From contig NZ_CP119423.1 of the NCBI RefSeq assembly GCF_029223585.1, positions 1,984,001 to 2,048,000 of the forward strand: a DNA stretch of 64,000 nt, read 5' to 3'. Shown piece after piece: positions 1,757-9,681 of the stretch. Position 1 is the stretch's first letter; each line of letters begins with the position of its first letter. A model generated the notes under the pieces. It was not told where the DNA came from, did not search any database, and saw only the letters and a list, made by a program, of their open reading frames with translations. Made by a program: the position numbers and the translations under genes. This DNA comes from Photobacterium sp. DA100. GTDB lineage: Bacteria; Pseudomonadota; Gammaproteobacteria; Enterobacterales; Vibrionaceae.

Positions 1757-1777
1757 AGGGGCGTAATGCCCCTTTTT
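1757..1777 (+). terminator. Rho-independent terminator after fdhD-regulator pair
   Basis: Six-base stem AGGGGC/GCCCCT with a five-base loop (GTAAT), followed by a run of five T. It lies 20 bases after the stop codon. Confidence 0.85.
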
Positions 1778-1947
1778 ACTTTCCCCGAGTTAAATCAAAC
1801 GTATAAAGATAGCAAAACCCAAGTTTCGACTTAATACCGCCACCAGCAAAGTGCAATCATTTAGCCCTCACCCTCCTACACCAACAAACGTTTGCAATCA
1901 CAACCTGCCAACAGCCTTGCCAATGCTCTCCCGAACATTGCTTTTCT

Positions 1948-1959
1948 CTGGTCTGATGT
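1948..1959 (+). promoter_or_regulatory. FadR-like operator copy 1
   Basis: CTGGTCTGATGT followed by TTT. This closely fits the E. coli FadR operator pattern CTGGTCYGAYNTGTT as recalled from the literature. It is the first of three copies before the fatty acyl reductase gene. Confidence 0.5.
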
Positions 1960-2092
1960 TTTTTGGCACACCTTTAATGCTTAAAACTTAATCCTTTACA
2001 GATAGTTCACTCAATAAAGTCAAGATAGATAGCTATTTCAACTATATGAATTTATTAATATTTATCATGCGTCATATATACGAGATTTATCA

Positions 2093-2104
2093 CTGGTCTG
2101 ATGT
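2093..2104 (+). promoter_or_regulatory. FadR-like operator copy 2
   Basis: An exact 12-base repeat of copy 1 (CTGGTCTGATGT), 145 bases downstream, in the same orientation. Confidence 0.5.
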
Positions 2105-2239
2105 GACAAATGAAACCCAAAAAGAAAAAATGTGAGCAATTACTCTAAAATATGAAATACCCTTTAAGAATATTGATCTAGGCCACAATTTGATAGGTTT
2201 TTCTTTGAGGAATTGTGCCACTAGATGCACACTGAAATC

Positions 2240-2253
2240 GGTCATCTGACCAG
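2240..2253 (-). promoter_or_regulatory. FadR-like operator copy 3 (inverted)
   Basis: On the minus strand this reads CTGGTCAGATGACC. On either strand it contains the near-palindrome GGTCA-TC-TGACC. It is centred about 57 bases before the start codon at 2304, a suitable position to block or modulate transcription. Confidence 0.5.
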
Positions 2254-2303
2254 TTAATTACTCTGCAATTGAATGTAAAATAAATACCGCGTAAGGAGTG
2301 GTC

Positions 2304-4289
2304 ATGAATTATTTCATTACCGGCGCAACTGGATTTATCGGTTCTCAGTTATTACAACGTCTGGCTAAACGTCCTGGTGATATCTACCTGCTAAACTACG
2401 ACAAAATTTCTGAAGATAGACTGGAAGCTCTGTTAGAAAAACATAATCTGCCTAAGAACAAGTTTCACTGCATCAAGGGCTCGATTACCGAACCAAACTT
2501 GGGTATCTCAGCGGAAGATACCAAAAAGCTGACTGGAAAAATTGACCAGTTCTTCCACCTTGCGGCCATCTATGATTTGACTGCAAGCGAGGAAGATATG
2601 ATGCGCGCCAATATTGACGGCACGGAACACACACTACGTTTCGCCGAGCGCATTAATGCTGGCTGTTTCCATTACTTCAGTTCAATTGCTGTTGCGGGCC
2701 AGTACCGTGGTTGGTTCCGCGAAGACATGCTCAATGAAGCAACAGGCCTTGAGCACGCTTACTTCTCAACTAAGCACAATGCGGAAAAACTGGTACAAGA
2801 AACATCGACAATCCCATGGCGTGCCTACCGCCCGGGTATCGTGATCGGTGATTCGAAAACTGGCGAAGCAGATCGCATCGACGGTCCTTACTACTTCTTT
2901 AAGATTATCCAGAAGTTACGCCGCGCTCTTCCTGAATGGGCTCCTCTTCTTGGCCTTGAGGGCGGTCGTCTGAACCTAGTGCCTGTTGATTATGTTGCCG
3001 ATGCTATCGACCATATCTCGCACAAACCTGAATTGGATAACCAGTGTTTCCATATCGTCGACCCGGATCCATACCGCTCTGGCGAAGTAATCAACCTATT
3101 CGCCGAAGCTGGCCATGCGCCGCGCATGGCGATGCGCCTGGACATGCGTGTATTCCGTATGATCCCGTCGCACTTCTGGACCCAGTTAGGTCAAGTCCCT
3201 GTGCTTAAGCGCTTTATTGATGCCATCAGTAAAGAAATGGACATGCCGCAAGATGCGCTGACCTACTTCAACTACCCGACGCAGTTTGACTGCAGCAACA
3301 CGCTAAATGCACTGTCAGACAGCAACATCTGTTGCCCTCGCCTAGCGGATTACGCAGACAAGATTTGGGACTACTGGGAGCGCAACCTAGATCCTGAACT
3401 GCATGTCGAGAAAACCCTACAAGGTTGTGTTAATGACAAAGTCGTAGTGATCACCGGCGCCTCTTCAGGTATTGGTTACACCACAGCTATCAAACTGGCG
3501 AAGACCAAAGCCCGTCTCGTATTGATTGCCCGTGACCTTGAGCGTCTGCAACAAGTTCGTAATGAGATTGAACGCTTGGGTGGCCAAGCCTTTATCTACC
3601 AGTGCGACCTCAGCCAAGATGCACCGGCTCAAGAGGTGATCCAGCAGATTAAACATGATCACGGCAAAGTCGATATCTTGATCAACAATGCAGGGCGCTC
3701 TATCCGCCGTTCGGTTGAGAAAGCGACTGACCGCCTTCATGATTACGAACGAACCATGCAAATCAACTACTTCGGTTCACTTCGTATGATTTTGGGTAAC
3801 CTACCAGAAATGATCGAAGCCGGCGAAGGCCACATCATCAACGTCTCTTCGATTGCGGTGTTGACCAACCAGCCATTGTTCTCGGCATATGCCGCGTCGA
3901 AATCAGCATTGGATACCTTTACCCGTACCGCGAGTACTGAGCTGGGCGGCCAGGGAATCGACTTTACCACCATCAATATGCCTCTTGTTGAGACACGTAT
4001 GATTTCCGATCATTACCGTGAAGCAGAAGGTGGTATCCCGCTGCTTACTCCAGAAGAAGCCGCTGACTTGATTATCAAAGCGATTATCGAGAAGCCTAAA
4101 CGCATTGCGACCAAGCTTGGCCTACTGGGTGCCTTCGTCCATGGCGTATATCCGAAACTGGGTGAGCTGCTGATGGCTACAGGCTACAACCCAAATCACG
4201 GCAAGCATGACGGCGAAGAGGCAGAGCCTAAGCAACCGTCGGCCGATGTTGTTGCGCTCAACAGCATCATGCGCGAAATACATATGTAA
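2304..4289 (+). CDS. Two-domain SDR fatty acyl-CoA/ACP reductase (alcohol-forming, Marinobacter type)
   Basis: A 661-residue cytoplasmic protein, co-linear and very similar in recalled sequence to the Marinobacter 661-residue reductase (Maqu_2507), which reduces fatty acyl-CoA or acyl-ACP to fatty alcohol with NADPH. The N-terminal extended SDR domain has GATGFIG (7-13) and YFSTK (Tyr153, Lys157). The linker WDYWERNLDPEL is characteristic. The C-terminal classical SDR domain has GASSGIG (385-391), NNAG (461-464), VSS (Ser515) and YAASK (Tyr529, Lys533). ATG 2304 was chosen because AAGGAG at 2293-2298 sits six bases before it and gives exactly the family length; an in-frame GTG at 2298 lies inside that site. 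It is followed after 11 bases by the DUF2505 gene. Its natural product here (alcohol, wax ester or other) is inferred, not shown. Confidence 0.87.
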   Translation: MNYFITGATGFIGSQLLQRLAKRPGDIYLLNYDKISEDRLEALLEKHNLPKNKFHCIKGSITEPNLGISAEDTKKLTGKIDQFFHLAAIYDLTASEEDMMRANIDGTEHTLRFAERINAGCFHYFSSIAVAGQYRGWFREDMLNEATGLEHAYFSTKHNAEKLVQETSTIPWRAYRPGIVIGDSKTGEADRIDGPYYFFKIIQKLRRALPEWAPLLGLEGGRLNLVPVDYVADAIDHISHKPELDNQCFHIVDPDPYRSGEVINLFAEAGHAPRMAMRLDMRVFRMIPSHFWTQLGQVPVLKRFIDAISKEMDMPQDALTYFNYPTQFDCSNTLNALSDSNICCPRLADYADKIWDYWERNLDPELHVEKTLQGCVNDKVVVITGASSGIGYTTAIKLAKTKARLVLIARDLERLQQVRNEIERLGGQAFIYQCDLSQDAPAQEVIQQIKHDHGKVDILINNAGRSIRRSVEKATDRLHDYERTMQINYFGSLRMILGNLPEMIEAGEGHIINVSSIAVLTNQPLFSAYAASKSALDTFTRTASTELGGQGIDFTTINMPLVETRMISDHYREAEGGIPLLTPEEAADLIIKAIIEKPKRIATKLGLLGAFVHGVYPKLGELLMATGYNPNHGKHDGEEAEPKQPSADVVALNSIMREIHM

Positions 4290-4300
4290 GGAATTAAGCA

Positions 4301-4819
4301 ATGCAAGTTTCAGTTATCCACGATTACAAAGAAGATCTTGATACCTTGCTGCGTTATTTCAGTGAAGAAGAGCTCATCACTGAGAAATACCAGAAACTTG
4401 GCGGTAAAAACGTTCGTATCAACAAGCTTGAGGAAACCGAAGATGGTTTCCGTGTTGAAACCCAGCGTGATATGCCTGCCAATGTGCCTGCAGTACTTAA
4501 AAGCCTGCTAGGTAGCTTCAATACTATCAAGCAGACCGAGTCATGGCACTGGCAAGAAAATGATCAGCTGATTTGCAAGCTGCAGATTGAGATCTTGGGT
4601 GTACCGGCAACGATTACTGGCCAGATGGTGTTCAGCGAACCGACGACTCGTCCGGGAATCACAACATCGAATCATGTGACAATGGATGTGAAGTCTGCGA
4701 TCCCTCTGGTAGGTAGCACGCTCGTTTCATTTATCTGCGGTGACATGAAAGATCAGATGCAAGCTGAGTACGACTTCCTGCGTGAAGTACTACCTCACCT
4801 TGTCGCTGAAGAACAATAA
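4301..4819 (+). CDS. DUF2505 family protein (START-like fold predicted)
   Basis: A 172-residue soluble protein with no signal peptide. The pattern (YFSEEELITEKYQKLGGKNVRI near the start, then the SWHW motif and a GDMKDQMQAEYDFL C-terminal helix) fits DUF2505, a family related to polyketide cyclase/START lipid-binding folds. It lies 11 bases after the acyl reductase with TAAGGA before its ATG, so the two form an operon. A lipid- or acyl-binding role beside the reductase is inference. The biochemical function of the family is not known to me. Confidence 0.7.
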   Translation: MQVSVIHDYKEDLDTLLRYFSEEELITEKYQKLGGKNVRINKLEETEDGFRVETQRDMPANVPAVLKSLLGSFNTIKQTESWHWQENDQLICKLQIEILGVPATITGQMVFSEPTTRPGITTSNHVTMDVKSAIPLVGSTLVSFICGDMKDQMQAEYDFLREVLPHLVAEEQ

Positions 4820-4837
4820 CGTTCACCCCGTCACCTT

Positions 4838-4873
4838 CGGCAATCCCAAATAATGCTATTAATGGGGTTGCCG
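4838..4873 (+). other. Ten-base-pair hairpin between DUF2505 and tetR genes
   Basis: CGGCAATCCC (4838-4847) pairs with GGGGTTGCCG (4864-4873) with one G-U pair and a 16-base loop. No T-run follows, so it is not a classic terminator. It may be a leaky terminator, a processing site or part of a TetR operator. Confidence 0.45.
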
Positions 4874-4901
4874 GATGTGAAGCTCGAATAACAAGGAAAA
4901 G

Positions 4902-5537
4902 ATGATGAAAACCAAAGATAGGATTTTGTCAGTTAGTCTTGAGCTGTTTAATCGTGATGGTGTTGCACAAGTTAGTACATTAATCATCGCCACCGAGATG
5001 GGGATCAGCCCAGGAAACCTTTATTACCATTTCCGCGGCAAAGATGAAATTATTGCCACTCTGGTCACCGAGTTGCAAAATTCACTGACAACCATCAGCA
5101 ATGAATATGCAAGTCAGGTCAAGGACTTCGATGATTACTGGCCTTTCATGCACACTGTAATGGCTTTATTTACCCATTACCGCTTCTTGTTCAGAAATTT
5201 GGACAGCCTAAATGGCCAAAACCCACAGATTAAGCGCAAAATCAGAAGCTTGATCCTTAAGCTCCGTCATTTATGTAATGACATGCTCAAACACCTCGTT
5301 GTCTTGGGCAAGCTAAAATGTGATGAGCAAAGCCTGCCTCTATTGGCAGATAACTTATTGCTAGTGAGTCTGAACTGGCTTAATTACCAGACACTTCTAG
5401 ATGATCACTACACCGAGAGTGACCTGGCACGCTCAGGAGTACTGCGTTTGATCTCGATGGTAGAGCCTTATCTGACAGAAAATGCGAAGTCCCCTTTCTT
5501 CACCCACCAGGATTTGGTATCGGAGCTAGTGACATAA
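4902..5537 (+). CDS. TetR/AcrR family transcriptional regulator
   Basis: A 211-residue repressor-type protein. Residues about 5-55 form the TetR DNA-binding domain (RILSVSLELFNRDG, then GISPGNLYYHFRGKDEIIATL). The C-terminal part resembles the ligand domain of the PF13972-type bacterial repressors. ATG 4902 and ATG 4905 are both possible; AAGGA at 4893-4897 fits either. It lies 82 bases after the DUF2505 gene and probably controls that acyl reductase operon or itself. Acyl-CoA or fatty acid as effector is a guess from context. A strong terminator follows. Confidence 0.85.
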   Translation: MMKTKDRILSVSLELFNRDGVAQVSTLIIATEMGISPGNLYYHFRGKDEIIATLVTELQNSLTTISNEYASQVKDFDDYWPFMHTVMALFTHYRFLFRNLDSLNGQNPQIKRKIRSLILKLRHLCNDMLKHLVVLGKLKCDEQSLPLLADNLLLVSLNWLNYQTLLDDHYTESDLARSGVLRLISMVEPYLTENAKSPFFTHQDLVSELVT

Positions 5538-7185: not shown

Positions 7186-8124
7186 TTAACTGGCTTTCTT
7201 ATCGATGGATTCGCCCGCTTCCTTGAACTTTTCTCGCACAAAGGCAGTCATTAGCTTCAATGCATCCCTGGCTTCGCTCAATTGATAGAATAGCGGATAA
7301 ACATGCGGCACCCCCTTCACGACATTGATCGTCACATCATTTCCGGCCTGCCCTAATCGCTCAGCAAGGTGCGTCGCATCATCCATCAATAATTCTTCGG
7401 TGCCCGCGGTAATAAATGTCGGCGGCAAATCATGATGGTCAGCATAATAGGGAGAGATATCTGGATCACAGGGGTTTTGCATACCGATATAGTTGTTACG
7501 CATCAGTAGCAAGGTACTCAAGTCGAAAAAAGGGTCATCCTTGCACTTCTTGAATGCCGATGCCCCCGTGACAGCCATATCTGTTACAGGTGACATCATG
7601 ATCCCCCCTGCAGGCTGCGGCAGCTTAGCGTCCCGGATACGTAGCATGGTTGTCAGCACTAGGTTTCCACCGGCTGAGTCGCCGGCAAAGAAAATTTGGT
7701 GGGGATGGTAGCCTTTAACCAGCAATCCGCGATACACCGCAAAGCAGTCATCGGGAGCAGCAGGATAAGGGTTCTCAGGTGCTAGGCGATAGTTAACCAT
7801 CAACCCCCGAGCATTGGTATAGTTCGCAAGACGAGCTAAAAAAGCACTGTGGATTTTCGGGCTGTGGAAACAAAAGCCGCCACCGTGAAAATAGAGAATG
7901 ATCTTATTACCACTGCTCTTGGGCATGTCGACCCAGTCGCAAGGCACATCTGAAAAACGAGTTGGTGTAATCTCCATCCCTTTTGGTGCCGCAATAAAAG
8001 GCCCATAGTTATCAATTGATAAAATGAGATCCCGCATTTCTTCGGTCGATTCACAATTTGCAAGACGTTGCCGCATAATACGGAATAAAACCTTGTTGAA
8101 AGCCCTATTACGCCAACTATCCAT
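7186..8124 (-). CDS. Alpha/beta hydrolase, hormone-sensitive-lipase family esterase
   Basis: A 312-residue cytoplasmic esterase. The oxyanion motif HGGG is at 80-83, the nucleophile is Ser150 in GDSAGG, the acid is Asp248 (ELLMDD) and the base is His274 (GVPHVYPLF). These define bacterial family IV (HSL-like) esterases acting on short to medium acyl esters. ATG 8124 is chosen with AAGAGG eight bases upstream; an in-frame GTG at 8133 overlaps that site. It is transcribed toward pbpG and lies beside the phasin genes. A role in storage-lipid or ester turnover is inferred from the neighbourhood only. Confidence 0.85.
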   Translation of the reverse strand: MDSWRNRAFNKVLFRIMRQRLANCESTEEMRDLILSIDNYGPFIAAPKGMEITPTRFSDVPCDWVDMPKSSGNKIILYFHGGGFCFHSPKIHSAFLARLANYTNARGLMVNYRLAPENPYPAAPDDCFAVYRGLLVKGYHPHQIFFAGDSAGGNLVLTTMLRIRDAKLPQPAGGIMMSPVTDMAVTGASAFKKCKDDPFFDLSTLLLMRNNYIGMQNPCDPDISPYYADHHDLPPTFITAGTEELLMDDATHLAERLGQAGNDVTINVVKGVPHVYPLFYQLSEARDALKLMTAFVREKFKEAGESIDKKAS

Positions 8125-8297
8125 ATACACCACCTCTTTTACAATTCATTTACAAAGTTAGAATTAAACAAGCGGTTTGGTCAATATCTCGTAGTAAAAA
8201 AATGATGATATTTTAAAAGAAGTGTCTATTTTTCTGTTATTTAAGGTAAAAAATCTTGTTTTCAAGGGTGTAAAAAAGCTCTACCACCGAAGGCAGA

Positions 8298-8431: not shown

Positions 8432-8791
8432 TTACTCTGCTTCTGCCAATTTCTCAACGGCTTGAGTCAGTTTGTCGATTTTCTCGTCCATACGCTCAAG
8501 CTTCTCTCGGTCAACGCCACTTAGGCGGTAGAACAGATCATTCATACCTGCTTCTACTTCCTCTGTTGCTTTTTCCGTGTTCTTACCAATGCACTCTTTC
8601 GCCTGGATTTCTACTTCTTTCCCGCGCTCAACAAGCTCATCAAACATTTGGTTTGACTTCTCGTTGATTTGCTGGGCTTCTTCCAAGCTACGGCTGTAAA
8701 GACCAAGGCCTGCTAACCAAATGTTACGTGCAATGCCTTCACCACTTTCAACGACATTTTTTGCCGCTTTCACTACTGTATTGTTGCTCAT
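8432..8791 (-). CDS. Phasin family protein (PhaI-like, short)
   Basis: A 119-residue protein that coats polyhydroxyalkanoate granules in related bacteria. It has the family signature NIWLAGLGLYSRSLEEAQ near residue 22, then a long amphipathic helix and a C-terminal heptad-like segment (LERMDEKIDKLTQAVEKL) that can form a coiled coil. ATG 8791 is chosen with AGAGG eight bases upstream; ATG 8797 sits too close to that site. It is downstream of a longer paralogue that shares the NIWLAGLGxY motif, the usual short/long PhaI-PhaF pairing. The synthase genes are not in this window. Confidence 0.85.
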   Translation of the reverse strand: MSNNTVVKAAKNVVESGEGIARNIWLAGLGLYSRSLEEAQQINEKSNQMFDELVERGKEVEIQAKECIGKNTEKATEEVEAGMNDLFYRLSGVDREKLERMDEKIDKLTQAVEKLAEAE

Positions 8792-8868
8792 AATCATATC
8801 CTCTTGCGTTATCTTACTTTAAGCACGCGCGATTGAACTTACGGCTGCATATCTATTGATAGCTATGC

Positions 8869-9501
8869 TTAGACCACTTCAGGTTTTGCACTTTCAGCTG
8901 GCTTGGTGCCTTCAGCTGCTGCTTTTGGCTCCGCAACAGCTTTAGTTGCTGCTACGGTCTGCGGCTTTACCGGCGCTTCGACCTCTTTCTTCTCTACTTC
9001 TGGTTTAGCCTCTGGAACAGGCTGAGCCGCTTTTACTGTTTTACGACGTGCAACACTTGGTTTCTTGGCTGCAGGTGCCGCCTTTTCAGTCTCTTTCGCA
9101 GCTGGACGCTTGCGAGCTGCCGGCTTTTTCTCAGCTTGTGCCTTATGGCGTTCAACAAGAGCTTCGATGTTAGCGGTTAGCTGGTCGATCTTGTCGTCAA
9201 CACGATCAAGACGCTCGTTATCCAGCCCAATGAATTTCTGAACCATGTTGTGCATGCGTTCTTCAATCGCCACTGAAGTCTGGCTTCGTGCGGTGTGAAC
9301 ACGCTCTTTCGTCTTTGACTCCACTGCGCGCCCACGTTCAATCAACTCATCAAACAGGCTCTTACCTTTGTCTGATAACTGATTAACTTCTTCAGCACTC
9401 TTGGCATAAGCACCAAGGCCTGCCAACCAAATGTTGTATACCATTGCGTCACGAATCTGCTCTTTGTTTGATTCTTCCGCAGTCTGTTTGAAAATTCCCA
9501 T
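8869..9501 (-). CDS. Phasin with Lys/Ala/Pro-rich tail (PhaF-like)
   Basis: A 210-residue protein. Residues 1-115 are a phasin domain (NIWLAGLGAYAKSAEEV, then LDNERLDRVDDKIDQL coiled coil) paralogous to the gene downstream. Residues 120-210 are a low-complexity Lys/Ala/Pro tail with Glu and Val, comparable to the histone-H1-like tail of Pseudomonas PhaF that binds DNA and helps segregate granules. Here the basic part (AARKRPAAKE, VARRKTVKAA) gives way to a Glu-rich end, so DNA binding may be weaker. ATG 9501 is chosen because GGAGGGG lies just upstream; the longer frame to 9645 lacks this. Confidence 0.85.
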   Translation of the reverse strand: MGIFKQTAEESNKEQIRDAMVYNIWLAGLGAYAKSAEEVNQLSDKGKSLFDELIERGRAVESKTKERVHTARSQTSVAIEERMHNMVQKFIGLDNERLDRVDDKIDQLTANIEALVERHKAQAEKKPAARKRPAAKETEKAAPAAKKPSVARRKTVKAAQPVPEAKPEVEKKEVEAPVKPQTVAATKAVAEPKAAAEGTKPAESAKPEVV

Positions 9502-9681
9502 CAGTTTCCCCTCCATACTATTGCGATAGTGCCAGCCAGTGGGTATTGCCTGACTGCTTGTATGTAATTTACGAATTTCAATTAGAATGTTCTCCCTAAA
9601 ACAACACTTTATCGCGCCGAAGGGTATGATTGTGAGATTTGTCACAGAGCAGGCCAGAAAAAACGCTATGAATCAAAGAGA

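Follow-up and report, generated by a model that had tools for sequence, protein, structure and literature searches.

We call the window the whole 64 kb stretch (64,000 nucleotides) of Photobacterium sp. DA100 DNA that was analysed. At its left end lies FAR1, a gene for a predicted fatty acyl-CoA reductase, preceded by a long leader that carries three FadR-like sites and followed by two smaller genes in the same orientation. The features of the locus are as follows.

1757-1773, plus strand: terminator-like hairpin after the upstream gene, from a computed scan
1946-1962, plus strand: site 1, FadR-like 17-mer CTCTGGTCTGATGTTTT
2091-2107, plus strand: site 2, FadR-like 17-mer CACTGGTCTGATGTGAC
2205-2233, plus strand: promoter-like block TTGAGG-17-CACACT shortly before site 3, picked out by eye in the alignment
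2239-2255, minus strand: site 3, proximal FadR-like 17-mer AACTGGTCAGATGACCG
2304-4289, plus strand: FAR1, predicted 661-residue, two-domain, alcohol-forming fatty acyl-CoA reductase
4301-4819, plus strand: DUF2505 gene (PF10698, 1.6e-32), beginning 11 bases after FAR1
4902-5537, plus strand: TetR-family regulator gene (PF13972 and PF00440)

A domain search places NAD_binding_4 (PF07993) at residues 5-235 in the N-terminal part of FAR1 and a short-chain dehydrogenase domain (PF00106) at residues 379-569 in its C-terminal part. The protein belongs to the NF005539/PRK07201 family, scoring 859.9 bits with NF005539 (cut-off 549). With its 661 residues, two SDR-type domains and both catalytic triads it resembles maFACR of Marinobacter (Maqu_2220), whose C-terminal domain yields the aldehyde from acyl-CoA and whose N-terminal domain carries the aldehyde on to alcohol, and for which two triads are named (PMC7573125). 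The S, Y and K residues of both triads are present in FAR1 within one or two positions; the likeness is drawn from the published description and the triad positions given there (PMC7573125) rather than from the Marinobacter sequence itself. FAR1 is thus soundly assigned as a predicted alcohol-forming acyl-CoA reductase of the maFACR type. The DUF2505 gene is probably co-transcribed with FAR1, and the TetR-family gene is a possible second, local regulator. The order FAR1-DUF2505-TetR is found in the window (2304-5537) and, judged by sequence start, in all seven named Photobacterium loci (L009-L015).

With the upstream gene ending at 1737 and the reductase ATG at 2304, the leader is 566 bases long, where a previous, sequence-only reading of the window had put it at 560. 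Given the terminator-like hairpin at 1757-1773, FAR1 transcription probably starts inside this leader. The same reading had described two direct copies and one inverted copy of a FadR-like word in the leader, and all three are present: CTGGTCTGATGT occurs on the plus strand at 1948-1959 and 2093-2104, and the inverted copy, CTGGTCAGATGA, on the minus strand at 2242-2253, the 11-base form CTGGTCAGATG given earlier being exact. Across both strands of the whole 64 kb window the core CTGGTCNGA occurs three times, always within the 306 bases from 1948 to 2253. The word is otherwise not conspicuous by number. With up to two mismatches the 12-mer is found eight times in the window for 4.97 expected, a count reached in 13 of 100 shuffles, and ACTGGTCNGA has 34 copies genome-wide versus 53 for the reversed control. 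What distinguishes the word is its clustering and conservation, not its abundance.

The published FadR consensus reads aaCTGGTCnGACC(T/A)Gtt (PMC9329746). Its left half-site, aaCTGGTC followed by a variable base and GA, is well represented at FAR1, since CTGGTCNGA is exact in sites 1-3, the flanking AA being found in site 3 only. The full 17-base palindrome with the right half GACC(T/A)Gtt is absent: all three sites have GATG, and this right half-site without the canonical ACC is the chief weakness of the match and sets the FAR1 sites apart from the operators of the FadR regulon. Most of the fadL sites found in Photobacterium likewise lack GACC, examples being TTCTGGTCGGATGAGTT and AACTGGTCTGATTTGAT. 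In E. coli fabA, too, the left half is strong and the right half imperfect: the probe bound by FadR contains AACTGATCGGACTTGTT (PMC4537474).

We then compared the sites with operators of the genus itself. A matrix was built from 96 Photobacterium sites, none of them from a FAR leader: 29 of fadB (30 leaders), 23 of fadI (29), 30 of fabA (30) and 14 of fadL (30, counting sites within the range used). Scanning the window with this matrix bore out the resemblance to FadR operators claimed earlier, sites 2, 1 and 3 ranking 1, 2 and 15 of 127,968 window positions, although the training sites were chosen by their resemblance to the FadR core and the matrix is therefore not free of circularity. The scores of 15.7, 15.4 and 8.4 for sites 2, 1 and 3 are comparable to the held-out medians of five known groups (8.5 to 17.3); the lowest of the three belongs to the conserved site 3. 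An earlier training set that included spurious fadB words gave site 3 rank 18 and still put sites 2 and 1 first and second. Under a stricter core scan a fadB site is found in 25 of 30 genus leaders, so some members of the genus are without a clear one.

An EM search of the fadB, fadI and fabA leaders arrived at one palindrome, tACTGGTCaGACCAGTa, from each of its five best starts. Of the 25 FAR leaders, 24 have their best match to this palindrome at site 3; in the remaining leader the best match falls at site 2. Because their right half is GATG instead of GACC, the FAR1 sites score only 2.6 to 8.7 with it; the training sites displayed reach roughly 15 to 22. In the fabA leaders displayed the motif fell near -95 and not at the site expected at about -80, so tACTGGTCaGACCAGTa rests mainly on fadB and fadI. 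FadE leaders were left out because the matched domain is C-terminal and the 1500-base flank falls short of the starts of the approximately 820-residue frames.

Conservation was examined in 25 oriented leaders: 17 of FAR1, six of FAR2, a paralogue of which one protein compared is 53% identical to FAR1, and two from Vibrio; a 26th locus (L037) is incomplete and was left out. Each of the 17 Photobacterium FAR1 leaders that could be read, and each of the six FAR2 leaders, has the exact core of site 3, which makes 23 of the 25, and both Vibrio leaders have AACTGGTACGACCACTT, which is one mismatch from the core and nearer the full palindrome. Five further FAR2 leaders carry the exact core too, bringing the count to 11 of 11 FAR2 leaders examined (16 FAR2 genes were seen). 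Throughout the oriented set the 17-mer lies on the minus strand, its start 60 to 117 bases ahead of the start codon, and the most widely shared gapped 9-mer of these leaders is CTGGTCNGA itself (23/25). Site 2 is found in seven of the 17 FAR1 leaders (L020-L026), each time 148 bases from site 3, and site 1 in the present genome only. Among the seven loci from named records (six named species and one uncultured), site 3 is present in seven and site 2 in five. The exact core occurs in none of 13 FAR leaders from other families, four of which have one-mismatch cores. The expectation that the sites would be kept in orthologous leaders thus held for site 3 in every leader, for site 2 in part, and failed for site 1. 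The latter had been thought the best match to FadR, and its core is indeed exact and ranks second with the matrix; the same copy has the GATG right half and is confined to the present genome.

These comparisons bear on the simplest alternative, that the three copies arose by chance and have no function. A short core is common and, as noted, not enriched in the genome, nor is the mismatched 12-mer in the window, and for site 1, which is not conserved, a chance origin stands. For site 3 it is hard to maintain: the site is kept in every leader examined while its flanks diverge, across paralogue clades with only about half of their protein residues identical, and the three copies in the window fall together in one short segment. 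We regard chance as a scarcely credible account of all three copies, and site 3 as the best-supported candidate operator.

The position of site 3 is informative in its own right. It starts six bases after the promoter-like block at 2205-2233, which reads TTGAGA-17-CATAAT in L032-L035. The block is absent from the results of the consensus promoter scan, and we therefore infer the promoter position; on that placement site 3 would lie over the expected transcription start. The fad operators of E. coli are described as lying across transcription starts, and fadD has an additional site at -100 (PMC9329746). The position of site 3 suggests, as its natural reading, repression lifted by acyl-CoA, unlike the case of E. 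coli fabA, which FadR activates (PMC5733061). Further conserved blocks are seen in the leaders at about 2115-2190 of the window, GTGAGCAAxxACTCxAA and, downstream of it, AATxCC...GGAATxTTGA; a second regulator may bind them.

The genome encodes a regulator suited to such sites. It has one FadR_C match, a 283-residue protein that scores 373.6 bits with fadR_gamma (cut-off 249.2). The best solved relatives, 5dv5 and 4p96, which we take to be Vibrio FadR, match it identically over residues 28-69, the segment expected to contain the helix-turn-helix. Among 34 further FAR genomes searched, FadR is found in all 25 that belong to Vibrionaceae, and eight of the nine from other families give no FadR match, the ninth giving a weak one (1.2e-6).

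Other GntR regulators of the FadR type could in principle read the same motif, as could some other factor. PdhR and LldR bind similar palindromes of the form TGGT-N3-ACCA, and in 12 of the 17 FAR1 leaders (L020-L031) site 3 also fits TGGTC-N4-GACC, an inverted repeat whose spacing is not that of FadR. PdhR and LldR prefer an ATTGGT half-site, whereas all 25 proximal sites have ACTGGT. The GA after the variable base is likewise kept in all 25, the FAR2 sites lack GACC, and the same class of motif precedes the fadL genes of the genus. We consider a reader other than FadR unlikely.

The neighbouring TetR-family protein (4902-5537) offers another candidate. TetR regulators often act on their neighbours, and the gene keeps its place behind FAR1 and the DUF2505 gene in the window and in all seven named loci. 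The motif, however, also precedes FAR2 and a GMC oxidoreductase gene, no TetR frame being present among the frames of at least 150 aa in the FAR2 stretches, and it matches FadR targets elsewhere, fadL included. Control of FAR1 by the TetR protein through these particular sites is accordingly very improbable in our judgement, and a separate, second TetR site may add to the control that we propose for FadR.

The remaining copies of the core in the genome give a mixed picture. We examined 30 of the 34 copies of ACTGGTCNGA, 13 of which are intergenic by a frame rule. Seven of these precede fadL genes (three), a FadH-like gene (one; it falls below the family cut-offs and is on a cut frame), FAR1 (two) and a GMC oxidoreductase gene (one). 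The other six adjoin ygfZ, ybgI, dcuC, leuA, an HTH gene and a DUF406 gene, for which lipid roles are not known. The copies at dcuC (position 1376276 of contig C1), leuA (3446297), ybgI (936028) and ygfZ (484949) are either chance occurrences or unrecognised FadR targets. The stricter CTGGTCNGAYNNNTT has seven matches versus six for the control, of which three precede fadL genes, one precedes FAR1 and three lie inside frames.

The sequence-only reading had proposed that FadR controls an alcohol-forming acyl-CoA reductase, and this proposal gains support at the level of sequence from the FadR gene in the genome, the matrix match and the conservation of site 3; the comparisons support site 3, not site 1, as the main operator and FAR1 as a new target of a known regulator. 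It is likely, in our view, that the FAR1 leader carries FadR operators and that the acyl-CoA substrate induces its own diversion. When long-chain acyl-CoA is scarce, FadR would bind site 3 over the transcription start and keep FAR1 and the DUF2505 gene at a low level, the upstream sites 2 and 1 adding to the repression. Fatty acids that enter the cell would be converted to acyl-CoA, and this ligand would release FadR. FAR1 would then be made and would reduce acyl-CoA to aldehyde and alcohol, so that fatty acid intake probably switches on the making of fatty alcohol, the first step towards wax. The wax synthase encoded in this genome could join the alcohol to another acyl-CoA.

In its CTGGTCNGA core, in a candidate operator at the putative start and in the regulator family, the arrangement resembles the FadR regulon known from E. 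coli and Vibrio (fadL, fadBA, fadIJ and fabA among others). Both fadL and fadD of E. coli have more than one FadR operator (PMC9329746, PMC3460868, parts available), and the FAR1 leader has more than one candidate. The known FadR targets serve transport, beta-oxidation and unsaturated fatty acid synthesis, whereas FAR1 is reductive and alcohol-forming. In Vibrio, seven genes have a predicted FadR site; five are known fad or fab genes, and a reductase is not named in the accessible part of that report (PMC5733061). We found no report of FadR control of an acyl-CoA reductase in the literature searched, which took in few subscription journals and did not extend to RegPrecise, nor in that literature any of FadR control of the Marinobacter maFACR. 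In the available parts of the same literature the Marinobacter-type reductase is treated as an enzyme and as a component for engineering, and its natural transcriptional control is not described. If the proposal is true, a single acyl-CoA sensor sets both the breakdown and the reductive use of fatty acids. It would also make the control of bacterial fatty alcohol and wax testable with an existing regulator, ligand and assays, and would provide a natural acyl-CoA-responsive promoter for fatty-alcohol production.

FAR genes keep company with wax synthases. A full-length FAR is encoded by 24 of 52 genomes of the genus and by two of 145 other genomes of the family. A WS/DGAT wax synthase is found in 25 of the 52, namely in 23 of the 24 with FAR and two of the 28 without (p 2.6e-11 by Fisher's test, with no correction for relatedness). 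In eight FAR2 stretches FAR2 stands between the adjoining wax synthase and a GMC oxidoreductase gene, and the divergent FAR2 and GMC genes have a FadR-like site in the interval that separates them. The present genome has no match to FAR2. It does have the other two genes, on another stretch of the genome:

L230:4728-8861, on C1: GMC oxidoreductase gene with a FadR-like site, and WS/DGAT wax synthase

Here CACTGGTCTGAGTTCTT stands before the GMC gene adjoining the wax synthase and scores 19.8 with the matrix, above every position in the window. Exact copies of this site occur in L182-L184 and a one-mismatch copy in L186, and none was seen in L195; directly before the wax synthase itself no exact site was found. 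The GMC protein resembles choline dehydrogenase and alcohol oxidases, its family passing the PRK02106 cut-off in a relative, and that it might oxidize fatty alcohols is a guess prompted by its genomic context. One can extend the proposal to a FadR regulon that includes a wax-ester module (FAR1, the FAR2/GMC pair and, by adjacency, the wax synthase) and acts as a switch for both fat storage and fat burning, with DNA looping between FAR1 operators 148 bases, or about 14 helical turns, apart. We put this extension forward tentatively, as one that could well be right but that we would stop just short of favouring.

Two neighbourhoods hold further frames. Divergent from the wax synthase, at L230:9613-11850, is a gene for a 745-residue protein with a weak match to butyryl-CoA:acetate CoA-transferase models. 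Beside the FAR1 locus, on the minus strand between 7186 and 10017 of the window, lie an alpha/beta hydrolase-like frame (7186-8133) and two phasin-like frames (8432-8797 and 8869-9645), named by eye rather than by a family search, which suggest a polyester storage locus adjoining FAR1.
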